IMG/VR virus record: IMGVR_UViG_3300005747_000869
Span: 1-24,738 of that record
DNA length: 24,738 nucleotides
Reading direction: 5' to 3' (one strand)
Source: a virus
Shown here: piece by piece, positions 4,973-19,865 of the stretch
How positions within the stretch are numbered: position 1 is the first letter of the stretch
Layout of the letters: every line of letters starts with the position of its first letter
Made by a program: the position numbers and the translations under genes
Notes under the pieces: model-generated
Seen by the model: the letters and a program-made list of their open reading frames with translations, nothing else
What the model was told of the DNA's origin: nothing
The model's database searches: none

Positions 4973-5192
4973 TATCTTTTACTCCAAATTTAATATGATT
5001 ATACCATACTCGTTCATGCGCATAGTACAGAACCATTTTAGTTATCACTTCAATACCACCAATCATTGCTCCGACTTCCAGACTACCAGTTACAAACCAA
5101 CCGATAAGCATCGTGTCGATTGTACCAGTTATACGCCAAGTGATAGTTTTGGCAATGTGACGTTTTCTTGTTACAGTTTTATTCGTATTCAT
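4965..5192 (-). CDS. DUF2061-like small membrane protein
   Basis: The 75-residue protein matches DUF2061 (PF09834). Its basic N-terminus leads into AKTITWRITGTIDTMLIGWFVTGS, then VGAMIGGIEVITKMVLYYAHERVW, reproducing the family pattern TITWR...TGS...E...K...YYxHERxW. Two hydrophobic segments suggest an integral inner-membrane protein. The family is widespread in bacteria and its function is unknown; bacterial members often sit near sulfur-assimilation genes. It overlaps both neighbours: 14 bases with the oxygenase upstream and 8 bases with the adenylyltransferase downstream. Having it directly before a nucleotidyltransferase is notable. Confidence 0.85.
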   Translation of the reverse strand: MNTNKTVTRKRHIAKTITWRITGTIDTMLIGWFVTGSLEVGAMIGGIEVITKMVLYYAHERVWYNHIKFGVKDNV

Positions 5193-5784
5193 ATTTAGAA
5201 TTCACACTAACGACCATTCTATTATTAGAATTATTTTTATGATACCCACTACCATGCTTCAACCAACTTGGAAATATCAATAGATCCCCAGCATTAACAT
5301 CGAATTGATATCTAGTCCAGTTATGCTCATTGTATTGTTCAATTGTATTGTTAAACTCTGATGCAAGATTAGGACTTTGAAAAACTATTGGACTGCTACC
5401 ACTAGGCGCATTAATATACAATGCCATACTAGCAACAGATCCATCGTGAATATGATCGCGTAACAAACTGCCCTCATTTTGAATATTAAACCAACTATTG
5501 CCTAACTTTAGTTTCATTATTCCCATTGTTTTTGTATAATAATCGAAGTGATAACTCAATACTTCTTTTATGTTAGGAACTACATTAGATTGTAACTCAG
5601 TTAGACAATCAAGGGTAGGATAATTTTCAAGAAAATGACTGCTGCTAGAATCACCATCTAAAGCATCATGACGATCAGTATTCAAATGAATCAAATACTC
5701 ATAAATCAATTTCAACTCGTTCTTAGAAAATACGTTTTCTTTTCTAAAAACTGATGTTGGAAATAATTTATATACTTCCAACAT
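5179..5784 (-). CDS. 2-oxoglutarate/Fe(II) oxygenase (TIGR02466-like)
   Basis: The 201-residue protein resembles the 2OG-FeII_Oxy_5/TIGR02466 group, common in T4-like marine phages. The N-terminus VYKLFPTSVFRKENV is typical. Metal ligands are probably in SWFNIQNEGSLLRDHIHDGS (HIHD near residue 112) and the distal His in PSWLKHGSGYH, followed by RMVVSVN with the 2OG-binding Arg. Members hydroxylate unknown small-molecule or protein substrates; a prolyl-4-hydroxylase-like role is often assumed. The start overlaps the previous stop by one base (TAATG) and has no strong Shine-Dalgarno, so coupling is likely. It is distinct from the larger TET/JBP-like dioxygenase at 12430-13836. Confidence 0.82.
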   Translation of the reverse strand: MLEVYKLFPTSVFRKENVFSKNELKLIYEYLIHLNTDRHDALDGDSSSSHFLENYPTLDCLTELQSNVVPNIKEVLSYHFDYYTKTMGIMKLKLGNSWFNIQNEGSLLRDHIHDGSVASMALYINAPSGSSPIVFQSPNLASEFNNTIEQYNEHNWTRYQFDVNAGDLLIFPSWLKHGSGYHKNNSNNRMVVSVNSKYEYE

Positions 5785-6874: not shown

Positions 6875-7157
6875 TATCTATTACTCCATGTTGTGCGTCA
6901 TGATTATACAACGCCATAATTCCATAATGTAAGATCTTCATTAGATCCTTTCTTGCTTCTTCGGTACTACCTTTGTTGCCATACCTTTGGGCATACTTCA
7001 TAATATTCCCAATGGTGAAACCTGCTCCATGACCAGCATCAAAAATAAACTCCGATGCTTGAAATTTATTCTTGCTGTAGTGTTGATCATAGGTATTGTC
7101 GATATAATTCATCAACTGCTGCACTAGTTCTGCTTCATTATATTTGTATTCGCTCAC
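6861..7157 (-). CDS. DUF3310-like protein
   Basis: The 98-residue protein has the DUF3310 (PF11753) signature: hydrophobic and aromatic residues, then GFTIGNIMKYAQRYGNK, then EEARKDLMKILHYGIMAL. This pattern (IGNxxKYxxRYGxK...DLxKxxHY) is common in phage proteins of unknown role, sometimes fused to or near nucleotide-metabolism enzymes. The start is GTG at 7157, overlapping the glycosyltransferase stop by 4 bases (GTGA), with AAGGA 9 bases upstream. It directly precedes gp45 and is co-transcribed with it from the promoter at 8043-8071. Confidence 0.82.
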   Translation of the reverse strand: MSEYKYNEAELVQQLMNYIDNTYDQHYSKNKFQASEFIFDAGHGAGFTIGNIMKYAQRYGNKGSTEEARKDLMKILHYGIMALYNHDAQHGVIDNENQ

Positions 7158-8011
7158 TTGCGTTTTTCCTTTCCTATCTTGTCAGGATCAGCAGTAGCAG
7201 TAGCACCAATTTGTGCTAGATCTGCCAAAGAACCACCAAAGGTATATGATCCAGTATGATCTAGTTTCATCCAAGGGCACAACCATGTATCAACACCACA
7301 CTCACGCATCCACTGACAAAACATATAGTCCTCGGAGAGATACCGCTTAGTCTTAGGATCGATAAGTGCTTGAAAGTACATCATGATCTCACGCGAACCA
7401 TCAAAGTGTTGTGTTCGAACGTGATCAGGTTTGTACGAGTAGTCTGGATATGCTGCATCAAACTTAGTGAAGGCATCCTTAGTGACCATCATGAACCCAG
7501 TACCACCTTCAAGCACCTTAACAGGTTCACTTAGTTTTACTTGAGTTTGCCCCTCAGCAGGATTGAACACATAGTCCCCAACAAACTTCTGTAGTTGGTT
7601 TGGATCTTTGTCAGCAAAACCACGATCAACTGCTTGCTTGATCTTTTCCCATGCGATAGTCTTTTTGGGATATGGTCCACAAACAATCTTCTTGCCATCA
7701 GGATCATTCTCATCCATTATTGCAGCAAGACTGAGTACATCGTTTGGATCAAATCCAATGTCACTATCAATGAACATCAGATGAGTGAAGTCTGATCGAA
7801 CGAACTCATCTGCGCAATAGTTTCGTGCACGAGTGATAAGTGATTCATTGAATAGGTAGAAGAAACGTATATCAATGTCATATGCCTGACTCATCTTGGC
7901 GAGGTCAGCAGTTGACTTAGTGTACATTCCGTGACATTGCCCACCATACATTGGTGTGGCAACGAAGATTTTCTTTTTGCGAAGTTCGCTCAGTTCAATC
8001 GTCAGTTCCAT
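7154..8011 (-). CDS. GT-A fold glycosyltransferase (family 2/Anp1-like)
   Basis: The 285-residue protein starts with KKKIFVATPMYGG, a nucleotide-sugar-binding first strand, and has FNESLITRARNYCADEF followed by HLMFIDSDIGF, in which DSD (about 82-84) is the DxD metal motif of GT-A glycosyltransferases. LEGGTGFMMVTKDAF and YLSEDYMFCQWMRECG resemble the acceptor and catalytic regions of phage GT2-like enzymes. Similar proteins are common in marine T4-like phages. The acceptor is not identifiable; it could be modified DNA bases (a hydroxymethylpyrimidine from the dioxygenase would be a natural target), a virion protein or a cell-surface glycan. GGAG lies 5 bases before the ATG, and a sigma70-like promoter lies 32 bases upstream. 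Confidence 0.85.
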   Translation of the reverse strand: MELTIELSELRKKKIFVATPMYGGQCHGMYTKSTADLAKMSQAYDIDIRFFYLFNESLITRARNYCADEFVRSDFTHLMFIDSDIGFDPNDVLSLAAIMDENDPDGKKIVCGPYPKKTIAWEKIKQAVDRGFADKDPNQLQKFVGDYVFNPAEGQTQVKLSEPVKVLEGGTGFMMVTKDAFTKFDAAYPDYSYKPDHVRTQHFDGSREIMMYFQALIDPKTKRYLSEDYMFCQWMRECGVDTWLCPWMKLDHTGSYTFGGSLADLAQIGATATADPDKIGKEKRK

Positions 8012-8042: not shown

Positions 8043-8071
8043 AGTATAAAGCAAACTTCTTATTTAGTCAA
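8043..8071 (-). promoter_or_regulatory. Sigma70-like promoter for glycosyltransferase-DUF3310-gp45
   Basis: The minus strand has TTGACT (8066-8071), 17 bp of spacer and TATACT (8043-8048). The last T of the -35 box is the first base of the TAA stop of the CobS-like gene. Confidence 0.75.
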
Positions 8072-9218
8072 GTTTTTGTTCAGGTTCAGAAGAAACTTCC
8101 TCAGAAGATTCCTCTATCTGAACGCCAGCGTCAATCTTAGAATAAAGATCAGCGAAAGAAACTTTGGTGTCATCGTCGAAACGATTGATACACATTTGAA
8201 TCGCCTTCATACGATCACCAAAGATTGAGTATGCTTTAGCAATATGAACCAAACGACGAGTAGATATAATTTCATCAACACCACCATCATAAAAAGTTTT
8301 GCGAATGATATCTGCCCAGTCAACAAGTTTCTCGACAAACTCATCATCGTTTACTTTCAAATCAGCAAACATATTACCAAGAATCTTTTTCTCGATTGAT
8401 GGTGTTGGATAAGATTGCTCAACAGTAATAGGGAAACGTTCAAGGAATGCTTCGTTCATTACGTTAGTGCCGATGAATCGACCATCGTCAGATCCCTTGC
8501 CCTTAGTGTTAGCAGTGGCGACTACGGTGAAACCAGATGCGGGAGTAACGTACTCCCCAGTCTTCTTGATGAAGTATCCGCCACCCTCAAGGATGGACTG
8601 GAGACACATAACCTTTGCTGGATTAGCAAGGTCAATCTCATCACAAAGCAGAACTGCACCAAGTTCCATTGCTTTGATGACTGGTCCTTTGAAGAACTTA
8701 GTCTCACCGTTTACCAAACGGAAACCGCCAATGAGGTCATCCTCATCAGTCTCAATCGTGAAGTTCACGCGAATCACTTCACGGTTGGTCACCGCACAAG
8801 CTTGTTCTACACTCAGCGTTTTACCATTACCTGATAGACCAGTAATGTATAGAGGGTAGAACATTTTAGATTTGACAACATCTTTTACAAGACTGAAGTT
8901 GCCAAAGGGAGTGAATAATGGATCAGTCGCAGGAACAAGATTTTCCTGAAATGATTCTGATTCCATATTCATATTCTGTTTCGCAGCAGGTGCTGGTTCA
9001 ACAGTTTTCTTTTTCATCGGAACAACATTGGCGTTCAGATTCATTTTGTACATACCACGTCCTGCGCGGAGACTTTTATCACCAAAGATCCACGAAGGAT
9101 ATCCGACACCTGCTTCATCAGCAATCGATTGGATTACCGAACGTGGCGCAGTGAAGTCTGGTCCAAGTTTTTTAACAAGTGCTGTTTCAAGTGTTTCAAT
9201 ACGAGTTTGCTTATCCAT
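8064..9218 (-). CDS. cobS: CobS/MoxR-like AAA+ ATPase
   Basis: The 384-residue protein has an N-terminal CobS-type segment (EAGVGYPSWIFGDKSLRAGR), then an AAA+ core: Walker A GLSGNGKT (127-134), Walker B AVLLCDEIDLA (187-197), and ATANTKGKGSDDGRF with sensor 1. It is the type annotated CobS in cyanophages. In aerobic cobaltochelatase, CobS and CobT form a ring-shaped chaperone for CobN. Here it lies just after a CobT-like VWA protein but no CobN is present, so a general MoxR/VWA-type remodelling role is as likely as cobalamin synthesis. I chose ATG at 9218 rather than 9236 because GAGAGAGG lies 7 bases ahead and CobS-like N-termini begin near here. The C-terminus is Glu/Ser-rich. Confidence 0.9.
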   Translation of the reverse strand: MDKQTRIETLETALVKKLGPDFTAPRSVIQSIADEAGVGYPSWIFGDKSLRAGRGMYKMNLNANVVPMKKKTVEPAPAAKQNMNMESESFQENLVPATDPLFTPFGNFSLVKDVVKSKMFYPLYITGLSGNGKTLSVEQACAVTNREVIRVNFTIETDEDDLIGGFRLVNGETKFFKGPVIKAMELGAVLLCDEIDLANPAKVMCLQSILEGGGYFIKKTGEYVTPASGFTVVATANTKGKGSDDGRFIGTNVMNEAFLERFPITVEQSYPTPSIEKKILGNMFADLKVNDDEFVEKLVDWADIIRKTFYDGGVDEIISTRRLVHIAKAYSIFGDRMKAIQMCINRFDDDTKVSFADLYSKIDAGVQIEESSEEVSSEPEQKLD

Positions 9219-9225
9219 AATATAG

Positions 9226-9338
9226 TCCTCTCTCAAAGGTTTAAAAAATACTCAATCAATACATCTATTCTACCATATAACCGTCTCAAAGTAAAGTTTT
9301 TTCTGAAACTAAATTGCTTGCAGAATCAATCACTTACG
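9226..9338 (-). repeat. Repeated intergenic module, copy A
   Basis: This region shares an ordered set of elements with 11716-11840 and 16099-16222: the preceding gene's end with AATCAA...ACTTA on the plus strand, an AAAG/TTTTT-like patch, a sigma70-like promoter, and a leader with CTCTCTCA (plus strand) placed before the next ATG. The three copies are diverged but collinear. Confidence 0.5.
9267..9295 (-). promoter_or_regulatory. Sigma70-like promoter for the CobS-like gene
   Basis: The minus strand has TTTACT (9290-9295), 17 bp of spacer and TAGAAT (9267-9272). It sits in the gap between the CobT-like and CobS-like genes, about 50 bases before the CobS-like start. Confidence 0.65.
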
Positions 9339-11511
9339 AAATTTCTTCAATAAATTCATTCAACATCTGTCTGGAAACCAACTTTTTCTTGTTTGCAGTA
9401 CGGAAACTCCTGAGAATCTCACCCTTTTTGGCAGATTCACTGACTTCAAACGAACCATTCGATGTCTCAAGAGACTTACCACCTTTGATCATAAAGTATT
9501 TGTCATATCCAAGACCAGTAACATTAGCGAAGTTATTTTTTTTGAACAAATCATAATACTTCTCAGCAGAGTCGCGTGTCTTTTCAAAACTCATAAGTGT
9601 GTCGACAAACTTATATTTCGCTGCTGAAATAATACGATATCCAACCACTGTCGAACCAGTCCTCGCTTTGTACATTTGAATCAGTCTTTTTGTGCAGTTA
9701 TCTTTGTTGATATTGTATGTGTTTCTAGTTACATGATCACTAATGATGCATCTCTCAAGATTTCTTACATTTATCCCTGAAGGTGGTCTCAATGAAGAAA
9801 CAGATTTTCGTCTATCACCATCACGTGTTTCGTAACTAACAGTCGTATTAGTATTATGCGAATCACCATCAGTCAGAATAATTGTGTTTACAATGTCAAC
9901 TGGGTTTGTTCGTTGAAACTCATTGTGTATAGAACTTGCGACAAGCAGAGTCGAGTCTAATGGTGTACCATATAGTCTCCATGTATCTCTCAAATATCTG
10001 CAGTATTTCCCCATCATCAACAAACGACCACTCATAGCACTGAAATCTTTTTTGGTCATTTTGTTATTGAAGAACTCTATCAATTGGAATCTTTCAATTG
10101 GCACAAGAGTGTTGTCGCGCATATTAGAAGTATCTAATTGTGGTTCCTCAGCATAAAAATCCTCAGATGGTGAATTAGAAAATGCATACACGCGGAATGG
10201 TATATTTACTTGTCGGCAAAAGTGAACAAGATTCAAAGTCTGCTCAACAGTTTTGTATATGTCGTTGACCATTGAACCAGACCAATCAAGATACATGATC
10301 ATGCCGTGGTTCTTGCCGTCAGGAACGATGTTTACTTTACGGAAGATATCATCATTGTATTTGTATGAGTTCATCTTCACTGGGTCAATCACACCAGTCT
10401 TAGAGATATATGATCGAGAGTAATTAGTAGCAGACTTCTTCATCTCAAACTCTTTGACGAGATAGTTGATCGTTCTTTTGTTATTGACAGTAAACTCTTT
10501 CAGCAATTTACTTGCCTTTGATTCAAGCGCAGTATTAAACGCATCGCATTGATCATCCGCATAATATCCATCTTCGTGGTGGGGTCGAAGGATAGAAACA
10601 AATTTAGTGTTCAGAATAGTTTTGTAATCTGTCACAAATTGTTTGTGATCAATATCGGTAGTCATGTATGTTTTAATGGTGGAGAAGTTGACGCTCTGTC
10701 CATGTTCACCTTCGATAGCGTCGCGAAGCATCTGATCAGTCTTTGCTACCAACTCATCTTCAGGACTTTTTGAGTCTTCAACATCCTCTTCAGTTTCACC
10801 CTTTGCCTCTGAGTTATCTTCACTTTCAGATTCCTCTTCATCAGATTCTTCAGCATCTTGATAACCATCATCGTATGCTTCATCATCAGACTCATCGTCT
10901 TCTTCACCTTGTTCCATTTCTTCAGAAGGCGATGGCATATTTTGCATTTGCTCTTGCTGTTTGTCTTTTGCTTCAGCATACAATCGCTCACAGATATCAA
11001 CTACCTGCTCCCATGTTTCTGCTACAGCAATCTCATCGATCCAGTGTTGCTCGTCTTTTTCAATACGAACACCAGCAGACATACCACATTTGAAATAAAC
11101 GTTGATGCGATCGATCAAATTCATTTCGTTGATATCATCGATGTCACCACCGAAAAAGTTTTCAGCAAGCATCTTACGATAAGACTTGACAAACTCACGT
11201 CGAAGTCCTTGATACTTTCGCTGAATTAATTTTTCGATACGTGCATCTTCAACTACGTTTAGAAATGATTTGAATGCTTTACCTTTACTTTTATCGGTAA
11301 CAGCATCATGTAAACCTTGCTCTGGTGTGTACAGAGCATGACCAACCTCATGACCAACGAGGTGGTCATAGGTATAGTCTTTCATGTCGTTCCACTGGGG
11401 AAGTGTAAGGACACGATCTTTTACATCGAATGATGCAGTAGGAACGTTGTCGTGAACCACTGTAAGATTTTCAGTGGCGAGAAGTTTAGCGAGAATATCT
11501 TTAGTATTCAT
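9334..11511 (-). CDS. cobT: CobT-like protein: HExxH metallopeptidase-like and VWA domains
   Basis: The 725-residue protein opens with a peptidase-like region containing HEVGHALYTPEQG (His54-Glu55-x-x-His58), a zincin HExxH motif. A long Asp/Glu/Ser-rich low-complexity stretch (about residues 195-260) follows, as in CobT proteins. The C-terminal half is a von Willebrand A domain with the MIDAS motif MYLDWSGSM (about 400) and TIILTDGDSHN. It pairs with the AAA+ CobS-like protein next to it; VWA proteins commonly serve as adaptors of MoxR/CobS ATPases. The HExxH suggests proteolysis or metal insertion, but activity is not proven. Start 11511 has AAGGG upstream inside the end of the 64-residue gene. 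Confidence 0.85.
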   Translation of the reverse strand: MNTKDILAKLLATENLTVVHDNVPTASFDVKDRVLTLPQWNDMKDYTYDHLVGHEVGHALYTPEQGLHDAVTDKSKGKAFKSFLNVVEDARIEKLIQRKYQGLRREFVKSYRKMLAENFFGGDIDDINEMNLIDRINVYFKCGMSAGVRIEKDEQHWIDEIAVAETWEQVVDICERLYAEAKDKQQEQMQNMPSPSEEMEQGEEDDESDDEAYDDGYQDAEESDEEESESEDNSEAKGETEEDVEDSKSPEDELVAKTDQMLRDAIEGEHGQSVNFSTIKTYMTTDIDHKQFVTDYKTILNTKFVSILRPHHEDGYYADDQCDAFNTALESKASKLLKEFTVNNKRTINYLVKEFEMKKSATNYSRSYISKTGVIDPVKMNSYKYNDDIFRKVNIVPDGKNHGMIMYLDWSGSMVNDIYKTVEQTLNLVHFCRQVNIPFRVYAFSNSPSEDFYAEEPQLDTSNMRDNTLVPIERFQLIEFFNNKMTKKDFSAMSGRLLMMGKYCRYLRDTWRLYGTPLDSTLLVASSIHNEFQRTNPVDIVNTIILTDGDSHNTNTTVSYETRDGDRRKSVSSLRPPSGINVRNLERCIISDHVTRNTYNINKDNCTKRLIQMYKARTGSTVVGYRIISAAKYKFVDTLMSFEKTRDSAEKYYDLFKKNNFANVTGLGYDKYFMIKGGKSLETSNGSFEVSESAKKGEILRSFRTANKKKLVSRQMLNEFIEEIS

Positions 11512-11715: not shown

Positions 11716-11840
11716 ATAACACCTCTCTCAGTTAAGTTACAACCATTGTACTCCAACTAGTCTCAAAAGTAAAGCTTTTTGCTATACTTTGTGGCTATAT
11801 GCATATAGCTAAAAGTAATATGCTGTAAAATCAACTACTT
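11716..11840 (-). repeat. Repeated intergenic module, copy B
   Basis: This copy is collinear with the modules at 9226-9338 and 16099-16222: AATCAACTACTTA at the end of the kinase gene, an AAGCTTTTTG patch, a promoter, and a CTCTCTCA leader (plus-strand readings). It carries an extra insert of about 30 bases holding the palindrome at 11794-11809. Confidence 0.5.
11745..11773 (-). promoter_or_regulatory. Sigma70-like promoter for the CobT operon
   Basis: The minus strand has TTTACT (11768-11773), 17 bp of spacer and TACAAT (11745-11750), about 30 bases upstream of the 64-residue gene. Its -35 box abuts the inner arm of the inverted repeat at 11773-11851. Confidence 0.7.
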
Positions 11841-11851
11841 AGCAAAAAGCT
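11773..11851. repeat. Nested inverted repeat: 12-bp arms around a 16-bp perfect palindrome
   Basis: The arms are AGCTTTTTGCTA (11773-11784) and TAGCAAAAAGCT (11840-11851), exact reverse complements. Between them is a perfect palindrome GCTATATGCATATAGC (11794-11809). The right arm encodes the last residues of the kinase gene; the left arm touches the -35 box of the next promoter. It could be a transcript-end stem-loop, a protein operator or a cruciform. No U-tract follows on the minus strand. Confidence 0.65.
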
Positions 11852-12430
11852 GACTATTTTGTCTGTATCTTCAGGTGTTTCGTGAGAGAACTCAACTACA
11901 CATCCCTTCTCTTCTCCGAATAGCGTCTGTCGGTCTCCGAACGCTTCGAGAACGTTCTGGCATTTAGTCCTAGTGGTTTGTATAAACTTATCTGATTGAT
12001 TGCTTCCTCGCTCCTTATAACGCTCCTCTCGGGTGTTATCAGAGACTGTTAGGTGTATTATAGTCAAATCATCACCCACTGCTTCGAAGAATGTCTTACT
12101 ATTAAGTCGGTCTCCCTCACCAAAGATTATCTCGTTTGGTTTGGTTTTGATCCACTCTATCGCTTTTGGTGCGACTGCCATACTGAGACGGTCTGTCCCA
12201 CTGAAGGTTTCGCCTTCTTCGTATTTACCAAGAACTCTATATGTGCCACGAATATGACGCACTATTGCTGCATCACCATCCTCTTCATCTTCATACTTAG
12301 AATGAACATGCGTATCAAGCAAATCCGTCACACGCTCTTGCGACCAGTTTTTTCCTATGCGTTTCATCAACGCCTTCATCAATGTAGACTTACCAGTTCC
12401 TGGAATACCAATAATGTAAAACAACTTCAT
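11831..12430 (-). CDS. P-loop kinase, candidate base/nucleotide kinase of a DNA-modification operon
   Basis: The 199-residue protein begins MKLFYIIGIPGTGKSTLMKA with Walker A GIPGTGKST (8-16). EIIFGEGDRL is the probable Walker B region and RYKERGSNQS a lid-like segment. It fits small P-loop kinases. Established knowledge: phages with hypermodified thymine encode a P-loop kinase that phosphorylates 5-hydroxymethyl-deoxyuridine in DNA, activating it for substitution by a pyrophosphorylase-like enzyme. Here the kinase overlaps the dioxygenase by one base (TGATG), with AAGGA 8 bases upstream, and is third after the pyrophosphorylase-like protein, which supports that role. A dNMP kinase or polynucleotide-kinase-like function remains possible. 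Confidence 0.75.
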   Translation of the reverse strand: MKLFYIIGIPGTGKSTLMKALMKRIGKNWSQERVTDLLDTHVHSKYEDEEDGDAAIVRHIRGTYRVLGKYEEGETFSGTDRLSMAVAPKAIEWIKTKPNEIIFGEGDRLNSKTFFEAVGDDLTIIHLTVSDNTREERYKERGSNQSDKFIQTTRTKCQNVLEAFGDRQTLFGEEKGCVVEFSHETPEDTDKIVSFLLSS

Positions 12431-13836
12431 CAGAAAAATCCTTCTAAGCTTGATTGCGTTTCATATGCCTCAGGATGATACTGCTGAACAATATCTTTCC
12501 CAAGTTTACTTTCCAAATAATCATACCACTCTTGCTGTGCCCACATATTAGGACTCACACCATTCCAGTATTCTCTCCATAATTTATGCTCTCTGTTGAG
12601 ACGACGATCGTCAACAAAGTTTTTGCGAGTCGTTTCATACTCCCAAGAACCGAGTTGATCCATATCTTCACGGAAGTAGTACACCAATGACATACGCATG
12701 AAATCATCCTCACCAGAGTCAGGTGCTTCGATAGGAGTGTTGCCGTGAATCACTCGCATGTTGTCAATTAGTAATAGATCTCCTGGACGAATGTTAATTG
12801 CTGCACGAACTTCAGGTGTCACCAAGTATCCGCCCTTCCAGTCTTTACCTTCAGGAGAGATCACTGTAAGGTTTGAATATCCTGCATTCAACGAACCAGC
12901 ATCACGATGACATGCCATCCGAGCATTACGATCCTTCGTTGTAGTGTTGACGGTAATTGTAGTGAATGTTGTATCCTCACCAATCAAGAACTTATTATCT
13001 AAACGTTTAGCAAACTCATTTTGTTTTTGCCAACGCATAGGAAGCATACGTTTAAACTCTGCCTCAAGTTTACGAGCAAATGGATAAGACTTTTCAAACT
13101 TCTCGCGATTGTGGTCAACGTATGCAGTAGCACGACCATAAGGAATGCGAGGATACCGTCCATAAAATCCAGCGATACCTGACCAAATAGCAGTAGCATA
13201 CGAGGTATCGCTAATCCATGTTTCTTTGAGCATCTTAGCATACTTGCCTGCATCTTCAACCGTCATGCCTGCCATTGCCATCATTGCTTGAGGAAAGAAG
13301 TTTTTGTAATCTGAATAACTATCCTCAATCTTAGTCGTCAACCAAACACCACCACGTATCTCATCTTTTTCTACTTCATGTTTCTTGCGCAGTGCTTCTA
13401 TTTGATCTGAACCATCGATTGCTTGCGGTTGTCCCTTGATATAATAGTCAAGTACATCTCGTTGGAAACTCGTCACCCACTCGCGACCACCTTGCGTTTC
13501 TTCTCTTGGACCTGCTGCAAGACCACGATTATTAGACTCTATCGCTGCATCAAATAATCCCTCATATGCACCACGTTGTTCTTCAGAAGTGAATACGTTT
13601 TTACGAAACTTGAATGCGATGGTAGTTTCATCCATCACAACTTTGTCACTCGTCATGTCTGTGGTTGGTAGATAGAAGTCAGCATCACTGTCAACTAGAA
13701 TGTCATACGAACTATCATCAACATACTTGCCAAGCACGTCATCATCTTTGACAATAAACTTGGCGACATAGACATCCTGTCCCTCGTCACCCTTGCCTTT
13801 CAACCACTGTTTTCCATTAATCTCAATCGTTTCCAT
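12430..13836 (-). CDS. TET/JBP-like Fe(II)/2-oxoglutarate dioxygenase
   Basis: The 468-residue protein has a C-terminal dioxygenase core. RIPYGRATAYV (230-240) leads to FTTITVNTTT, then CHRDAGS with HxD (His310, Asp312), then GGYLVTPE, RPGDLLLIDN, VIHGN (distal His364) and RMSLVYYFRE (Arg381). The order HxD - GG - PGD - HGN - R matches phage TET/JBP-family enzymes, which hydroxylate the 5-methyl group of thymine or methylcytosine in DNA. The first 200 residues contain no domain I recognise. ATG at 13836 overlaps the preceding stop by one base (TGATG); AGAGG lies upstream. Neighbours (pyrophosphorylase-like, kinase, ParB-like) are the expected partners in a hypermodification pathway. A non-DNA 2OG oxygenase is the alternative. 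Confidence 0.72.
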   Translation of the reverse strand: METIEINGKQWLKGKGDEGQDVYVAKFIVKDDDVLGKYVDDSSYDILVDSDADFYLPTTDMTSDKVVMDETTIAFKFRKNVFTSEEQRGAYEGLFDAAIESNNRGLAAGPREETQGGREWVTSFQRDVLDYYIKGQPQAIDGSDQIEALRKKHEVEKDEIRGGVWLTTKIEDSYSDYKNFFPQAMMAMAGMTVEDAGKYAKMLKETWISDTSYATAIWSGIAGFYGRYPRIPYGRATAYVDHNREKFEKSYPFARKLEAEFKRMLPMRWQKQNEFAKRLDNKFLIGEDTTFTTITVNTTTKDRNARMACHRDAGSLNAGYSNLTVISPEGKDWKGGYLVTPEVRAAINIRPGDLLLIDNMRVIHGNTPIEAPDSGEDDFMRMSLVYYFREDMDQLGSWEYETTRKNFVDDRRLNREHKLWREYWNGVSPNMWAQQEWYDYLESKLGKDIVQQYHPEAYETQSSLEGFF

Positions 13837-14819
13837 CAAAAGAATTCCTCTAATCCGACGTTTGTATTAGTGAACGTCTTATTGTAATCTATAACACCTG
13901 TATCTAAGTATATCTCCATTTTACCCTTATTTATGGAATTAGTCAAGTATTTTTTGACCAGCGTTTCTTCTCTGGCGTCCCATAAAGGTTGCCAGTCGAT
14001 TCCTGCCCAATTATCTTTCTCAACCTTTTTGATTTCCTCTGCTTGCCTGTCAAGATAGTATCCAAGATATCTACCGTCTCTTTTGCGGAACAGTTTCTTG
14101 AATGAACACAAGCACGTTTCCATAGCAAAATAGTCTGCTTTATCTGCTACATTTGGAAATCTTTGCCTCACTTCAGCAAGCATTTCTTTTGCCTCACCGT
14201 TTAGATAATCCAACTGCGTTTCGTCTAGTTTTTGATTTACCCATTCGTCACGATCAACAGCATAACATAAACCATTCCGATGGGAACGAGACCCACTGTG
14301 ATCATGCAACCACAAAGAATCAACATCCAAAGGAACTTTGCCGCACTGCTTGAGAGTCTGTAGATAAAACCACGAAGTGTATCTACCATATTTGTGCCAC
14401 CCATTTGCTACATCCCATAGATTGTAAAAATTCTTCACAGGGTCATCTGTTAGATGCTCTGCGATTGCTTCACCTTGTGTACGATCACCAACCCACTCTT
14501 TATAAGATACAAACTGCGCAGGCAGATGTCCCTTGTTCCACTTAGTATCATTTTGATATCGAAGACGTGAATAGTTGTCATCATTCCATTTCTTCAAACG
14601 ATCGACGCCAACTAACTCCATGTCAGGGAACTCGTTCCAGATCACATATGCAGTTGGCCAGTAGTATGTAGTTCCATACAACCAAATCAACCACAGTCTC
14701 TGCTCGGTGTTATATTCAAACCGATCAAAGTAGTAATTGGTCATGAACAGAGCAGAGTCGCAATCCTCTAACTCCAATGACCAACCAAACCAGTTTATGA
14801 AATTTTCTTTACGATTCAT
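13836..14819 (-). CDS. Putative alpha-glutamyl/putrescinyl-thymine pyrophosphorylase-like protein
   Basis: The 327-residue protein is rich in Trp and Tyr and looks alpha-helical. Its motifs are YNTEQRLWLIWLYGTTYYWP (about 35-54), KYGRYTSWFYLQTL (about 143-156) and SRSHRNGLCYAVDRD (about 177-191). These resemble the DNA-glycosylase-like aGPT-PPlase clade predicted to displace pyrophosphate from activated hydroxymethyluracil in phage DNA and attach an amine or amino acid. The match is by motif style, so moderate. It overlaps the ParB-like gene by 11 bases upstream and the dioxygenase by one base downstream. The ATG at 14819 is preferred to TTG at 14828; it has no clear Shine-Dalgarno, so coupling to the upstream gene is likely. 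A promoter for the dioxygenase lies inside its 3-prime end. Confidence 0.6.
   Translation of the reverse strand: MNRKENFINWFGWSLELEDCDSALFMTNYYFDRFEYNTEQRLWLIWLYGTTYYWPTAYVIWNEFPDMELVGVDRLKKWNDDNYSRLRYQNDTKWNKGHLPAQFVSYKEWVGDRTQGEAIAEHLTDDPVKNFYNLWDVANGWHKYGRYTSWFYLQTLKQCGKVPLDVDSLWLHDHSGSRSHRNGLCYAVDRDEWVNQKLDETQLDYLNGEAKEMLAEVRQRFPNVADKADYFAMETCLCSFKKLFRKRDGRYLGYYLDRQAEEIKKVEKDNWAGIDWQPLWDAREETLVKKYLTNSINKGKMEIYLDTGVIDYNKTFTNTNVGLEEFF
13918..13946 (-). promoter_or_regulatory. Internal sigma70-like promoter before the TET/JBP-like gene
   Basis: The minus strand has TTGACT (13941-13946), 17 bp of spacer and TAAAAT (13918-13923), all inside the 3-prime coding end of the pyrophosphorylase-like gene and about 80 bases before the dioxygenase start. 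It could allow separate expression of dioxygenase and kinase. Confidence 0.55.
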
Positions 14820-16095
14820 TATCAACAAAACAAGGAAGAACTACATATTGAACATTTGCATCAGGATGTAACCTTTCCATTGCATTTTTTAGTTTCTTTT
14901 TACTGCTAGACCACTTTTCATATTCATCCATGCCTTTGTGATGAGTAATAATGATACCATCCCATACTCCCATACCACCCATCTTATTCATAATAGCACC
15001 AATGCCAGCGTTATACACTGCGCCAGAAGAAACAGTAATCACTGCAACATCACCGTTATTCGCATCTTCATATTCTTTCGTGATTTTTTCCAATTCAGAA
15101 TGAGAGTATCTTTTAAAGTTCATTGTTGCTTCTGCAGCATTAGTTTTAATCCTATTGATAGCAACTTGTATATTCTTTGCTATCTGAGGGCGAGTCCACA
15201 TTGGATACAATGCAATCTTACACTGTTCAATAAATTCTTCGCCTTGCAGAAGTTGGAACTCTTCGTCCTTATGCTTAAGTTCTTGATCGTATAGATCAGC
15301 GATAGCTCGTTGACAATCCTCTGCGCTACTCGGTTTCTTGATCTTAGGATTATGATTAGCGACTTGACCAAATCGATTAATGTTTGTCTGTCTGTCTAAA
15401 AATACGCTCTTGTTAATATATATCACAGGAGCAGAGGTCCACTTTGCTTTCACGATTGCTTGAGAAGTGTGGTTGCCGTCAATAATCCATTTCTGACCAT
15501 GCTTATCAACACAAACAATGATAGGTGATACATTTTTCCTTGCTTCAACAGGATCGTGTATCATGTAATCAGAAATTCTCTTAACATGTACATTGTCAAT
15601 CAAAACCAAACGAACTTGATTGTGTTTGAAAGATTGGATCAATTCTGTAGATTCTTCAATAACTTCATATCTTCCTTCTTGAACATCTTTCCAAATTTCA
15701 TCCACCAAGTCAATGTCAACCAAACTAGATACTTTGGTCTCTTCAACTGGTTCTATACCATTTATCCAATCAATACCAACTTTTGCTTGCTCATCAGAGA
15801 TTAGTTTGTAATCATAAATCTCTGCGCCACCACCATTACTCTTATTGTACCAGTTATCGTTACGACGAGCATCCACATGCTTTAGCAGTTTGCGTTCCAT
15901 AGTAATCATATCTGCTATGCTACCACGAGCAAGTATTGAACGACGCAGGTGCCCTAATGACCATGCCTTTCTTAATTCTAAATCTTCTGAAGAAAAAACA
16001 TATCCGTCGTCTAGTTCTTTTGACTTGCGATAACCGATATATTTCATACCATTGATAATATTTTGGTATCCGTAAACAAATGCTTTATGTTTCAT
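14809..16095 (-). CDS. GIY-YIG-like and ParB/Srx-like fusion protein
   Basis: The 428-residue protein appears to have two domains. The N-terminus, FVYGYQNIINGMKYIGYRKS (about 6-25) with YNKSNGGG (83-90), resembles a GIY-YIG-type nuclease fold. The middle has a ParB/sulfiredoxin-like domain: VRLVLIDNVHVKRI, then SPIIVCVDKHGQKWIIDGNH (about 190-209), then TSQAIVKAKW, where IDGNHTSQA is equivalent to the ParB DGxHR-type motif. The remainder contains no domain I recognise. ParB-like domains occur beside phage base-modification genes and may act as nucleases or nucleotide-handling enzymes. The start at 16095 has GAGAGAGAG about 9 bases ahead; 16140 is unlikely because it lies in the leader just after the promoter. 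It is the first gene of a four-gene operon. Confidence 0.65.
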   Translation of the reverse strand: MKHKAFVYGYQNIINGMKYIGYRKSKELDDGYVFSSEDLELRKAWSLGHLRRSILARGSIADMITMERKLLKHVDARRNDNWYNKSNGGGAEIYDYKLISDEQAKVGIDWINGIEPVEETKVSSLVDIDLVDEIWKDVQEGRYEVIEESTELIQSFKHNQVRLVLIDNVHVKRISDYMIHDPVEARKNVSPIIVCVDKHGQKWIIDGNHTSQAIVKAKWTSAPVIYINKSVFLDRQTNINRFGQVANHNPKIKKPSSAEDCQRAIADLYDQELKHKDEEFQLLQGEEFIEQCKIALYPMWTRPQIAKNIQVAINRIKTNAAEATMNFKRYSHSELEKITKEYEDANNGDVAVITVSSGAVYNAGIGAIMNKMGGMGVWDGIIITHHKGMDEYEKWSSSKKKLKNAMERLHPDANVQYVVLPCFVDNES

Positions 16096-16098
16096 AAT

Positions 16099-16222
16099 AT
16101 AGATCTCTCTCTCAAAAGGTAAAAATAAAATGCAACTCAATTAACTCATATATTGTACCATATAGAGTCGAAAATGTCAAGCTTTTTATGAAAGAGAATT
16201 GCCTTTAGAATCAACAACTTAG
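16099..16222 (-). repeat. Repeated intergenic module, copy C
   Basis: On the plus strand this copy reads CTCTCTCAAAAGGT near the ParB-like start, then a promoter, then AAGCTTTTT, then AGAATCAACAACTTAG at the GNAT stop. The same order occurs at 9226-9338 and 11716-11840. Confidence 0.5.
16152..16180 (-). promoter_or_regulatory. Strong sigma70-like promoter for the hypermodification operon
   Basis: The minus strand has TTGACA (consensus -35, 16175-16180), 17 bp of spacer and TACAAT (16152-16157), about 55 bases before the ParB-like start. This is the closest to consensus of all promoters in the window. Confidence 0.8.
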
Positions 16223-16755
16223 AAAAAATCTTGCAATCCTTTGGGTGAAACAAACACTTTTACACACCCTCCCTTGCCTTTTTTGTGTACTGCATTATAG
16301 ATTACAGTATCGTCGATGTTGAACTCGCCATCGGTTATAAGGTTTGATTTGATACGAAACATCGAGAGTTGGCACTTAGACTTCTGTTCACCAAGCATCT
16401 TAAATCCTATCCGCTCGTAGAATCCTACAGCGTCTGGTTCAGCAGAAACACGGAAGTAAATAGCACCTGCTTTTCTTGCACGGATAAGAGAGTCCTGTGT
16501 AAGAATCTTTGCCACGCTCTTTCCACGATGCTTTACAAATGTATGGAGCAACTGCAGGTTCGCTACCTTTGGCGACCGCTTAGAGATGGTGGTGATAATA
16601 GCACCCATCAACTCGTTCCCATCCCACGCACCAATGCAGTAATCCCACTGCTCTTGCATGTTTGCTTTTGCTACAAATGTTTTCGCAAACTTATCAGCAG
16701 GATCATCGCTTATGTGTGCTTTGAACTCATCAGCAGTACAACTACACAACTTCAT
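16219..16755 (-). CDS. GNAT-family N-acyltransferase
   Basis: The 178-residue protein has the GNAT layout: YCIGAWDGNELMGAIITTIS (about 39-58), LQLLHTFVKHRGKSVAKIL with the acyl-CoA pyrophosphate loop KHRGKSVAK (75-83), then AVGFYERIGFKMLGEQ (109-124). The C-terminal extension of about 40 residues ends GLQDFF. I chose ATG at 16755, which overlaps the amidoligase stop by 14 bases and has GAGAG upstream, over 16857, which would overlap it by more than 100 bases. GNATs transfer acetyl or other acyl groups to amines. In phages some (Mom-like or linked to amidoligases) take part in modification of DNA bases or small molecules. The context suggests it acts on the product of the amidoligase/amidotransferase set. 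Confidence 0.85.
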   Translation of the reverse strand: MKLCSCTADEFKAHISDDPADKFAKTFVAKANMQEQWDYCIGAWDGNELMGAIITTISKRSPKVANLQLLHTFVKHRGKSVAKILTQDSLIRARKAGAIYFRVSAEPDAVGFYERIGFKMLGEQKSKCQLSMFRIKSNLITDGEFNIDDTVIYNAVHKKGKGGCVKVFVSPKGLQDFF

Positions 16756-17614
16756 GAAACTCTCGAATCTTTTCGCCACGCGACTTATCATACTTCGTTT
16801 CTGACCAACCCTTATACTGTGGTCCATTCCAAACAAAAGGAGGGAATGTATAATCACCTTCAGCGAGTATTTGATTCACAGATGGACCATCGTTCAATGC
16901 GGCAGATATAAACTTCTCTGCAAATCTAAATGAGTCTTCAATATGTTTACGCTTTGTGCTAGAACGCAAACAACGGAACTCGATTGTACCAGTATGTTTC
17001 ATGCAGTAAGTATTGATCGCATAACGAAATGGTCTGCCCATCGAAACGCCATCTTTACCTGCGGCATGCAGTTTAATAAAGTGTTCAAAGTCTGTTGCTA
17101 GATTGATAATGTTATCTGACATATATTGAGGCATCGCACGACCACCATCAAACTTCAAATACATCTTAGCACCCAATCGTTTCATCTCAGGATGCTCATA
17201 GAATCCATACAGATGTTCTATAACGTCATGTTGATTTTTACTGATATAAGAGATGAGTCGTTTCAGTGCGTCTAGATCATTCTTCAACTCAGGCACAAAC
17301 ACGTGTAGGTGTCCGTGATTAACCACAGAAGCAGAGGGAGAGTTGCCGTTGTCGACAAACAGTTGATGTATCTCCATGATTCGATCTACTTGTTCTTGCC
17401 ACGTATTGGTTGGTTTGGTGTTTATCTCACCACCCATTGGTGGATGAGTGCCTAATGGATCGCAGGCGACATACTTATATGGTTCATGTATATTTACGAT
17501 ATCAGTTTCTGCGTGTTCCCATGCACCCAAATGAGAAGGGACTTGTAAAGTCCTATCAATATCTCCCCATTCAATCTCATAACCCCATGTGTATTTGTCA
17601 CTCGGATACTGCAT
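16742..17614 (-). CDS. Amidoligase-family (COOH-NH2 ligase) protein, copy 2
   Basis: The 290-residue protein fits the Amidoligase_2 family (glutamine-synthetase-like fold). The motifs are GYEIEWGD (11-18), GGEINT (61-66), NHGHLHVFVP (99-108) and TIEFRCLRSST (210-220), giving the Glu, His and Arg residues that bind metal and ATP in this fold. Such ligases form amide bonds between a carboxylate and an amine or ammonia. It aligns without gaps to copy 1 (18404-19273), with about 80 percent identity by eye in the first 120 residues and less afterwards. Its own promoter is at 17644-17672. The ATG at 17614 has only a weak GGAT site. The divergent middle may mean a different acceptor. The adjacent class II glutamine amidotransferase could supply ammonia. 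Confidence 0.82.
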   Translation of the reverse strand: MQYPSDKYTWGYEIEWGDIDRTLQVPSHLGAWEHAETDIVNIHEPYKYVACDPLGTHPPMGGEINTKPTNTWQEQVDRIMEIHQLFVDNGNSPSASVVNHGHLHVFVPELKNDLDALKRLISYISKNQHDVIEHLYGFYEHPEMKRLGAKMYLKFDGGRAMPQYMSDNIINLATDFEHFIKLHAAGKDGVSMGRPFRYAINTYCMKHTGTIEFRCLRSSTKRKHIEDSFRFAEKFISAALNDGPSVNQILAEGDYTFPPFVWNGPQYKGWSETKYDKSRGEKIREFHEVV

Positions 17615-17643
17615 GATTATCCTTTCATCATAATAATGTATCT

Positions 17644-17672
17644 ATTATACTTGAAATCCTACTGCAAGTCAA
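17644..17672 (-). promoter_or_regulatory. Sigma70-like promoter for amidoligase copy 2 and GNAT
   Basis: The minus strand has TTGACT (17667-17672), 17 bp of spacer ending in TTTCAAG, and a perfect TATAAT (17644-17649). The GATase stop codon lies in the spacer. The spacer end and -10 are nearly the same as in the promoter at 18383-18411. Confidence 0.8.
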
Positions 17673-18351
17673 TAATATTATTTTGTATTGAAATATTATA
17701 GAAAGATTCTATCTGTGAGTGCGATGGCATAGATGTAGGTAGTTGTCGATACTCTATAAACATATCACACTTCTTAGTAAGTGTCAATCCACTACGCTTT
17801 GCTATGTCCTTTGTTGAAGTGAATATAACACCATTGCCAAGTTTGCTCATCCACAATGGACGCTCATGATTTCTAAATGCAGTTAGTTTTTTATCAGAAG
17901 TTAACTTTACAACTGACATTGAACGATCATAATACTTTTCTAATGGATGTTTGTTATCTTCGAATGCACGCAGTAACAACTCGCTATCATTTGCAGTTTC
18001 ACATTCATACTCCCATGTTGAAGGATCTTCCTGTGAGATGACACCATTATGTGCAATAGCAAGAGAACCATTATCAAATGGTTGATTGTAACGTAGGTCT
18101 GAGGTGGAGTACCTTATATGACCAATTAGATACAAACCACCATCCTCGTTTACCCATTCCTCTATGTTTCTCGTTTCAAAAAACTCGGTGACAGGAATGC
18201 CCTCTTTGTCTGTATGAACTTCTCCGTCTTTCACATACGAAACTCCAGTTGCGTGTTTACCACGAACCATCGTCTGTTGAAAAACTTCTCGTACGAGTTC
18301 TATATCTGACTTATTGACATCAGTAAGAGAAACACCAATCACTCCGCACAT
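17659..18351 (-). CDS. Stand-alone class II glutamine amidotransferase
   Basis: The 230-residue protein is an Ntn-hydrolase glutaminase domain. It starts MCGVIGVS, with Cys2 as nucleophile after Met removal; RGKHATG (30-36), HIRYST (78-83), NQPF (89-92) and HNG (101-103) are the glutamine-binding and oxyanion motifs of PurF/GlmS/AsnB N-termini. No synthetase or isomerase domain follows, so it should release ammonia from glutamine to a separate partner. Amidoligases on both sides are the obvious candidates. A perfect promoter lies just upstream (18383-18411) and AAGGA sits 10 bases before the ATG. It could alternatively act as a peptidase or amidohydrolase, as some Ntn-hydrolases near amidoligases are thought to. 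Confidence 0.9.
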   Translation of the reverse strand: MCGVIGVSLTDVNKSDIELVREVFQQTMVRGKHATGVSYVKDGEVHTDKEGIPVTEFFETRNIEEWVNEDGGLYLIGHIRYSTSDLRYNQPFDNGSLAIAHNGVISQEDPSTWEYECETANDSELLLRAFEDNKHPLEKYYDRSMSVVKLTSDKKLTAFRNHERPLWMSKLGNGVIFTSTKDIAKRSGLTLTKKCDMFIEYRQLPTSMPSHSQIESFYNISIQNNIIDLQ

Positions 18352-18382
18352 TTAAAATATTCCTTTTAGTAAATATACCTAT

Positions 18383-18411
18383 ATTATACTTGAAATTACT
18401 CTGTCAGTCAA
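18383..18411 (-). promoter_or_regulatory. Sigma70-like promoter for the glutamine amidotransferase
   Basis: The minus strand has TTGACT (18406-18411), 17 bp of spacer ending in TTTCAAG, and TATAAT (18383-18388). The final T of the -35 box begins the TGA stop of amidoligase copy 1. Confidence 0.8.
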
Positions 18412-19273
18412 CATCATAATACTTTCGATCTTTTTTTCCACGAGAAACATGATATATCGTTTTTTGCCATCCTGTATACTCTGACGCATTGAAAATAAAT
18501 GGTGGAAATTCGTAGTCATATTCTGCCAGTATTTGTTTGACATTTGGTCCACCATTTAGTGCAGCATCCATAAACTTTTCTACAAATCTAAACGAGTCTT
18601 CAATATGTTTACGATTTGTGCTAGAACGAAAACAACGAAACTCAATCGTGTTGGTATACTGCATAATGTAAGTGTTTATTGCATAACGTTGGGATGGCAT
18701 CTCTCCTTGCAACTCTTTTGGTGAATAATGATACTTAATAAAGTCATCGAAGTTCTTAGAATTGTCTATTATATTCTTGCAAACTTTATTTGGCATAGGA
18801 GTACCACCGTCCACCTCCAAGTAATGGAAGTCCAGTTTTTCCATAATAAGATTTTTACGAAAATTGTATAAACGTTTGATTGTTATTGCTTGATTAGTTT
18901 TGATATACTCAATCAATCTTTTCAGTGCATCTATGTCATTTTTCAAATTTGGAACATGAACATGTAAATGCCCATGGTTTACACAAGAACTAGAAGGCGA
19001 GTCCCCATTGTCAATGAACAATTGGTGTATCTCCATAATTCTATCTACTTGTTCTTTCCAAGTATGAGTCGGTTTGGTGTTTATTTCACCACCAACTGGA
19101 GGATTAATTCCAAGAGGATCAACAGCAACATACTTATATGGTTCATGTATGTTTACAATATCAATCTCTGCTCGTTCCCAAGTTCCTAAGTGAGAAGGAA
19201 TCTCTAGAGTTCTATCGATATCTCCCCATTCAATCTCATATCCCCATGTATATTTGTCACTTGAATGATGCAT
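18404..19273 (-). CDS. Amidoligase-family (COOH-NH2 ligase) protein, copy 1
   Basis: The 289-residue protein is the paralogue of the amidoligase at 16742-17614. It carries the same motifs: GYEIEWGD (11-18), GGEINT (61-66), NHGHLHVHVP (99-108) and TIEFRCFRSST. The middle (about 125-195) differs most, for example YNFRKNLIMEKLDFHYLEVD against a different sequence in copy 2. Both copies keep the family residues, so both are probably active, perhaps on different acceptors or as a heteromer. The ATG at 19273 is 17 bases inside the zinc-ribbon gene and no good ribosome site is visible, so it may be coupled to it. No separate promoter was found directly before it. Confidence 0.82.
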   Translation of the reverse strand: MHHSSDKYTWGYEIEWGDIDRTLEIPSHLGTWERAEIDIVNIHEPYKYVAVDPLGINPPVGGEINTKPTHTWKEQVDRIMEIHQLFIDNGDSPSSSCVNHGHLHVHVPNLKNDIDALKRLIEYIKTNQAITIKRLYNFRKNLIMEKLDFHYLEVDGGTPMPNKVCKNIIDNSKNFDDFIKYHYSPKELQGEMPSQRYAINTYIMQYTNTIEFRCFRSSTNRKHIEDSFRFVEKFMDAALNGGPNVKQILAEYDYEFPPFIFNASEYTGWQKTIYHVSRGKKDRKYYDVD

Positions 19274-19433: not shown

Positions 19434-19865
19434 TTACCCTAAAATCATGTTTACAATATTCTCAGCATCTTCTGTTGTCCCCCATCTAGGAAACTTCATA
19501 TTGACTTCCTTGATATCAGGAGCAACAAATGCTTTGTTAGTATCCTCAAATCTACCTTCTTCGATTGTATGCATCCAGATCAACCAATCAGCGTTTAATG
19601 TTGTACGCATTTCAGGTAGAGGCGCAACCATGTCAACCATATTGATCTCAGTATCAGATTCATTACACAAATCACGCATACGTTGTGCCTGTCTCATTCT
19701 ACCTTCTTCACTGAAGTCCCAGTCATCAAACTTCTTACGAACCTCATCTGCATTGAACCAGTTTACTTTCACATCTCGCCTATTAAACTCTGCCTGAATC
19801 TTGAGAGCAAACGTAGTTTTGCCTGATCCTGGAAGTCCCATAAGAAGTAACATTTTATTCGACAT
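19434..19865 (-). CDS. APS-kinase-like P-loop kinase
   Basis: The 143-residue protein begins with KMLLLMGLPGSGKTTFALKI, Walker A GLPGSGKTT (10-18). NWFNADEVRKKFDDWDFSEE (about 35-54) parallels the DGDNxR...DLGFS region of adenylylsulfate kinase (CysC), and RMRQAQRM the conserved Arg-rich helix. It is shorter than CysC (about 200 residues), and the DGDN motif is changed to NADE, so the substrate may differ. In T4-like marine phages similar proteins are annotated as adenylylsulfate kinase or polynucleotide-kinase-like. It could phosphorylate a nucleotide or a sulfated nucleotide. The start overlaps the deformylase end by 11 bases, in the same operon. Confidence 0.78.
   Translation of the reverse strand: MSNKMLLLMGLPGSGKTTFALKIQAEFNRRDVKVNWFNADEVRKKFDDWDFSEEGRMRQAQRMRDLCNESDTEINMVDMVAPLPEMRTTLNADWLIWMHTIEEGRFEDTNKAFVAPDIKEVNMKFPRWGTTEDAENIVNMILG

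Follow-up and report, generated by a model that had tools for sequence, protein, structure and literature searches.

Do the four overlapping minus-strand genes at 11831-16095 of the IMG/VR record IMGVR_UViG_3300005747_000869 encode a pathway of DNA base hypermodification, and if so, which base is rebuilt, and when? The stretch analysed, called the window here, comprises 24,738 nucleotides. With homologues of gp44, gp45, gp46, gp47, gp55 and UvsW it is a fragment of a marine T4-like phage that infects bacteria. A first-pass annotation of the letters had read the four genes as a ParB-like protein, a pyrophosphorylase-like helical protein, a TET/JBP-like dioxygenase and a P-loop kinase, and had seen in them the composition of such a pathway. 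This composition was borne out, yet the pathway is longer: the genes upstream, at 16219-19273, had been missed and add a GNAT acetyltransferase, a class II glutamine amidotransferase (GATase) and two amidoligase-like proteins. The full island in the window thus runs from 11831 to 19273, and it probably specifies a thymine hypermodification pathway acting on finished DNA.

The four open reading frames (ORFs) are intact, their likely starts are all ATG, and they overlap by 11, 1 and 1 bases, within the 1-11 bases noticed earlier. Pfam searches were judged by the curated cut-offs (Tet_JBP 34.9 bits, ADDT 26.2, Ploopntkinase3 27, Amidoligase_2 22). The dioxygenase scored 59.7 bits against Tet_JBP, the helical protein 85.4 bits against ADDT (PF18724) and the kinase 69.9 bits against Ploopntkinase3 (PF18751). 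Because all three exceed the cut-offs, the matches are far beyond chance, and dioxygenase, helical protein and kinase all fall into the kinds of family named at first pass. The outcome that would have spoken against the first reading, unrelated families for dioxygenase and helical protein, was thus not obtained. Counted from the ATG, the dioxygenase residues H310xD312, H364 and R381 are where they had been placed and are invariant in seven aligned sequences down to 28% identity. The predicted pyrophosphorylase was of the right kind, but its family is ADDT, and the match to aGPT-PPlase clade 3 reached 0.0012 only. Its two noted motifs are conserved among relatives as GR-x-[ST]-x-W and NG[LA]; homologues occur in ViI-like and mycobacterial phages, and a PDB sequence search with ADDT gave nothing useful. 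The kinase carries the Walker A sequence GIPGTGKST which, like a GTD/EGxR motif, is conserved, and the gene adjoins TET or ADDT at most ADDT loci. Its family is not one of characterised 5-hydroxymethyldeoxyuridine (5hmdU) DNA kinases: PF18747 and PF18723, which hold these kinases, were not among the Pfam matches listed for the window kinase. The Cygsa01 kinases match these two profiles at 4.8e-84 and 8.8e-62. The TETs of Cr30, DLP6 and S-CBWM1 (L006-L008) are misannotated as SNF2 DNA repair protein.

Is the island a conserved unit? IMG/VR contains at least 515 confirmed TET relatives and at least 303 amidoligase relatives. In a TET-seeded scan 80 viral contigs with TET relatives were fetched and their ORFs clustered into families. 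Among the well-flanked contigs the kinase was present in 16/18 with ADDT versus 0/14 without it, and the class II GATase and the GNAT co-occurred with ADDT as the kinase did. In an independent, amidoligase-seeded scan, in which TET was not used as a query, GATase, GNAT, ADDT, TET and kinase were all present at each of the 19 well-flanked loci. The fuller island has the order TET-GATase-amidoligase-GNAT-ParB-ADDT-kinase. A simpler variant, GATase-GNAT-ADDT-TET-kinase, has no amidoligase, and in a sister variant, TET-ADDT-PLP-kinase (L065, L074, L076, L078), a pyridoxal phosphate (PLP) enzyme is found. The conserved set amounts to about seven enzymes and the island is longer than four genes. The four-gene composition was expected to be unusual in a T4-like phage. 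The opposite is the case: it is common among marine T4-like phages, occurs in Mycobacterium phage JAMaL and is near-identical in Rhodococcus phage Tonitrus (PMC11955845). A scan of bacterial genomes yielded one distant phage-like contig (L231) in which TET occurs together with ADDT and kinase. ADDT modules and sugar transferases are mutually exclusive: a transferase of the TET-associated glycosyltransferase (TAGT) or GT4 type was found in 1/48 contigs with ADDT versus 22/38 others, Cr30 being the only contig with both. This fits a TET which makes a shared hydroxymethyl base that is then either glycosylated or aminated.

A second common property was found at the C-termini. [ST]LExFF-like ends are frequent on TET, ADDT, both GNAT families and the sugar transferases, and the same tail is present on the phages' own DNA polymerase (9/9). 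Counted over distinct C-termini, 53/56 TETs (0.28 expected by chance) and 23/37 ADDTs (0.19 expected) carried the motif, as did 9/12 and 13/19 members of the two GNAT families; GATase (0/29), amidoligase (0/10) and ParB (0/11) did not. In the amidoligase-seeded set it was observed in 35/46 TETs, 14/37 ADDTs and only 11/50 GNATs, and never in GATase, amidoligase, ParB, gp46, gp47 or the clamp. The strict motif was counted in three complete genomes and a contig of 151 kb, where it ended 10 proteins versus 0.28 expected: the polymerase and the TET of C48C1, DLP6 and G013, two baseplate-hub proteins, one TAGT and one Dam methyltransferase. By family, 7/13 island families had the motif versus 2/44 other families. 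The tail of the T4/RB69 polymerase gp43 binds the sliding clamp gp45, and the window clamp matches the structures 1czd and 1b77/1b8h. Since the tails of TET, ADDT and GNAT are like that of the phages' own polymerase, these enzymes probably bind gp45; the motif is a strong lead for clamp recruitment, short of proof. A precedent for clamp binding by an enzyme that modifies DNA is T4 alpha-glucosyltransferase, which co-purifies with gp45, although this interaction is not the main determinant of the T4 glucosylation level (PMC13216743). The enzymes differ, and in the window island the clamp link is inferred only from the C-terminal motif. A Dam-type adenine methyltransferase at 158-1042 of the window has the likewise clamp-peptide-like NLDLFWD at its end, and its homologue in C48C1 (record 33480-34361) ends in STLDAFFG.

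Is the modification spread over the genome, or are a few sites marked? In the latter case the ParB-like protein and TET would modify a small number of sites and so leave an epigenetic or self/non-self mark, similar to base J, without bulk protection. The ParB assignment itself is partly sustained. PHROG matches to ParB were weak (6e-4), and Pfam ParB_N (PF02195) had no match in the window. Folds were compared instead, and an AlphaFold2 (AF2) model of pLDDT 82 had Noc/ParB/sulfiredoxin as best PDB matches (E 6.8e-5); a PDB sequence search gave nothing useful. What had been overlooked is an N-terminal GIY-YIG domain: the phrog_314 match (4e-9) covers residues 10-112 of the longer ORF, residues Y8, Y19, E67 and N84 are invariant in ten homologues, and in PADLOC the sole match for this part was a homing endonuclease. 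The fusion may represent a nuclease or recognition factor which discriminates modified from unmodified DNA, for which the evidence is weak. Sparse marking would be consistent with a ParB- or DUF262-type protein plus nuclease domain in several islands (the window; family 50) and with the ParB protein at 13/19 well-flanked amidoligase loci. However, many intact islands have no ParB protein, and the clamp-like tails of TET and ADDT suggest a genome-wide action behind the fork. We consider sparse marking unlikely. Some sugar-type TET islands (L028:3586-4965, family 50) encode a GmrSD_N/DUF262 protein (GmrSD_N 2.7e-5) with an HNH phrog match, possibly a modification-sensing nuclease and counterpart of the GIY-YIG/ParB protein.

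Next, amidoligase, GATase and GNAT might be mere neighbours that act on small molecules or proteins and have nothing to do with DNA. The AF2 model of amidoligase copy 1 (pLDDT 85) had glutamine synthetase (GS), glutamate-cysteine ligase (GCS), YbdK and Pup ligase as top PDB fold matches, with a probability of up to 0.99 but an E of ~2e-3 and a TM of ~0.4. Copy 2 is without the stretch AAGKDGVSMGRPF, which every other member retains, and may have diverged or be inactive. In the cultured-phage collection relatives of the amidoligase were distant only (26% identity). A distant amidoligase of Vibrio phage 2.275.O (L232 6866-11126) and an Ntn-type amidohydrolase have genes for deazaguanine synthesis as neighbours, which suggests that amidoligase/amidohydrolase pairs serve DNA base modification elsewhere. 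The missing clamp motif on amidoligase and GATase and the island variant without amidoligase would agree with mere neighbourhood. The linkage at all 19 amidoligase loci, the frequent motif on both GNAT families and the Vibrio arrangement speak against it, and we regard it as rather improbable.

Which base is the substrate? TET-type enzymes use 5-methylcytosine (5mC) or thymine. A C5-methyltransferase (PF00145) was absent from 50 records, nearly all of them TET-bearing virus contigs (including contigs of 151, 133, 120 and 119 kb) together with the complete JAMaL genome, and also from the complete genomes of C48C1, DLP6, Cr30 and S-CBWM1. A dUMP/dCMP hydroxymethylase (PF00303) was likewise absent from the same 50 records and from C48C1, DLP6 and S-CBWM1. 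The PF00303 protein of Cr30 was rejected as a dUMP hydroxymethylase; it is a canonical ThyA (TIGR03284, 337 bits). The earlier proposal that no dUMP hydroxymethylase is needed thus agrees with the relatives, complete genomes included, and the absence of both enzymes supports thymine oxidation in DNA. The PLP enzyme of the TET-ADDT-PLP-kinase variant is 36% identical (3e-56) to that of ViI-like phages, and 5-NeOmdU, a derivative of thymine, occurs in the DNA of ViI (PMC6449724). Because C5-methyltransferase and hydroxymethylase are missing and the PLP enzyme links the islands to ViI-like thymine hypermodifiers, oxidation of thymine in DNA is best supported, and thymine is the likeliest TET substrate as judged from gene content. 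An alternative pathway, in which TET oxidises 5mC, of host origin or from an unrecognised methyltransferase, to 5-hydroxymethylcytosine, which is then decorated by kinase, ADDT, amidoligase and GNAT, appears quite improbable: phage TETs acting on 5mC with TAGTs are known and TAGT is present in sister islands, but PF00145 is absent from the 50 TET records and the complete relatives searched, host-supplied 5mC would make the modification dependent on the host, and the relatives of ADDT and the PLP enzyme belong to thymine hypermodifiers.

From the genes, their families or folds, the conserved linkage and the common C-terminal motif, all of which were observed, the following reactions on thymine are predicted. 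TET/JBP would turn thymine in DNA into 5-hydroxymethyluracil by hydroxylation of the methyl group, as suggested by the enzyme family, the gene context and the lack of other routes. The P-loop kinase would phosphorylate the hydroxymethyl group, and ADDT, going by its family, would exchange the phosphate or pyrophosphate for an amine or amino acid. In the least certain step, which is derived from linkage and fold, the GATase would free ammonia from glutamine, the amidoligase would use ATP to amidate a carboxylate and the GNAT would acylate an amine, yielding a side chain that is amidated and/or acylated. Via their tails TET, ADDT and GNAT would probably sit on the gp45 clamp, and DNA would be modified just behind the fork. 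The likely purpose is protection against host nucleases. The most specific version, a replisome-coupled pathway of T4-like phages in which a JBP-like TET, ADDT and GNAT ride the clamp and, with GATase and amidoligase, build an undescribed amidated or acylated aminoacyl-thymine, is put forward tentatively, as a possibility with somewhat less than even prospects.

Several points weigh against the proposed thymine pathway. Because the contigs are mutually related, linkage counts and p-values describe the sample and do not amount to independent trials. The PF00145 and PF00303 negatives rest on relatives, the window genome being a 24.7 kb fragment. C5-methyltransferase is also absent in another TET clade (Nonlabens/HTVC112P type), and as this second clade is likewise without the enzyme, a positive control for TET phages of the 5mC type is lacking; the absence of the enzyme may be compatible with host-supplied 5mC or an unrecognised enzyme. 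To our knowledge, no 5-hydroxymethyluracil kinase activity has been demonstrated for Ploopntkinase3, and the kinase is mostly without the clamp motif (3/27). The amidoligase copies reached 14.5 and 16.2 bits against Amidoligase_2 (PF12224), below the cut-off of 22. Finally, the two baseplate-hub proteins (Cr30 record 133694-134392 and G013:147141-147869) end in GLxDFF for no known reason.

The features of the island are collected in the Table. The operon promoter had been called the best in the window; it has an 11/12 consensus match, but is tied with the two other minus-strand sites listed.

Table. Genes, C-terminal peptides and promoter-like sites of the predicted hypermodification island (positions in the window).
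Feature	Position	Strand	Evidence
P-loop kinase (KIN), Ploopntkinase3	11831..12430	-	PF18751 2.7e-19; Walker A GIPGTGKST
TET/JBP 2-oxoglutarate (2OG)-Fe(II) dioxygenase, 468 aa from ATG	12430..13836	-	PF12851 2.7e-16, over cut-off; phrog_24024 4e-149
TET C-terminal clamp-binding-like peptide QSSLEGFF	12433..12456	-	tail motif, form as gp43 polymerase tail
ADDT, predicted amino acid:DNA transferase	13836..14819	-	PF18724 6.5e-24; phrog_3271 1.6e-58
ADDT C-terminal clamp-binding-like peptide NVGLEEFF	13839..13862	-	tail motif
GIY-YIG nuclease domain + ParB/Srx-fold domain fusion	14809..16095	-	phrog_314 4e-9; Noc/ParB fold match
sigma-70-like promoter TTGACA-17-TACAAT, upstream of four-gene operon	16152..16180	-	11/12, consensus match only
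GNAT acetyltransferase, C-terminus PKGLQDFF	16219..16755	-	PF13673 3.3e-13
amidoligase-like carboxylate-amine ligase, copy 1	16742..17614	-	PF12224 0.033, below cut-off; GS/GCS-type fold
promoter-like TTGACT-17-TATAAT, upstream of amidoligase copy 1	17644..17672	-	11/12, consensus match only
class II GATase, N-terminus MCGVIG, nucleophile-type Cys2	17659..18351	-	PF13522 2.5e-9
promoter-like TTGACT-17-TATAAT, upstream of GATase	18383..18411	-	11/12, consensus match only
amidoligase-like protein, copy 2	18404..19273	-	PF12224 0.0097, below cut-off; 65% identity to copy 1

Elsewhere in the window a pair of a CobS-like AAA and a CobT-like vWA protein (8064-11511) adjoins the island, as it does in many contigs; in cyanophages the CobS-like gene is labelled porphyrin biosynthetic protein. 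A glycosyltransferase-like protein of non-TAGT type (phrog_1574, 7154-8011) is 55-61% identical to the copies in Cr30 and DLP6. The window also encodes another, unrelated oxygenase of the 2OG-Fe(II) type (PF13759) at 5179-5784 and, at 19434-19865, a P-loop protein that resembles APS kinase.

How does the island relate to known systems? The four-gene composition is already known. Genes 1-4 of JAMaL (Mycobacterium cluster B) are, in this order, ParB-like (so annotated in the record), Tet_JBP (at 5.5e-6 below the cut-off), ADDT (1.9e-8) and Ploopntkinase3 (1.4e-71), and the Tonitrus annotation describes a system for thymidine hypermodification that comprises ParB, a TET-like protein, aGPT-PPlase2 and a kinase (PMC11955845). 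Both are phages of another type, with proteins 26-28% identical to those of the window, and amidoligase and GATase are not annotated there. In the JAMaL record (L019:785-3460) genes 2 and 4, the Tet_JBP and Ploopntkinase3 matches, are misannotated as 'queuine tRNA-ribosyltransferase' and 'terminase small subunit'. With the phages ViI and M6, which carry 5-NeOmdU and 5-NedU, the island shares an ADDT homologue, the logic of kinase followed by transferase and, in the sister variant, the PLP enzyme. There, however, 5hmdU is incorporated at the nucleotide level (PMC6449724), with HMUD2/HMUDK_hel as kinases, whereas the window island has a TET, no PF00303 hydroxymethylase in the relatives searched and another kinase family. 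In base J synthesis (JBP1/2 plus J glucosyltransferase) a dioxygenase also hydroxylates thymine in DNA and the group is then elaborated, there with glucose, in the window island with a predicted amino/amide chemistry; sister phages have sugar versions. The TET family is also common to the phage systems of TET plus TAGT (PF20691), with islands in DLP6, S-CBWM1, L003, L062 and others, yet there is no TAGT in the window and no C5-methyltransferase in the relatives of this TET clade that were searched. TET/JBP-derived hydroxymethylpyrimidines were reportedly predicted as biosynthetic starting points by Iyer et al. in 2013.

According to the literature searched, the conserved extension of the island by amidoligase, GATase and GNAT in T4-like phages is new, as are the fused GIY-YIG domain, the clamp-like C-termini and the genome-level evidence against the 5mC and dUMP routes; new is also the mutual exclusion of ADDT modules and sugar transferases. 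In the thymine-hypermodifying phages known so far 5hmdU is made at the nucleotide level, whereas the genomic evidence here points to hydroxylation in DNA. The cultured phages Cr30, DLP6 and JAMaL allow direct tests of the action of phage TETs on thymine and of clamp recruitment of base-modifying enzymes. If the prediction is true, these phages would possess enzymes that together can remodel thymine in DNA already made, a set useful for DNA labelling.

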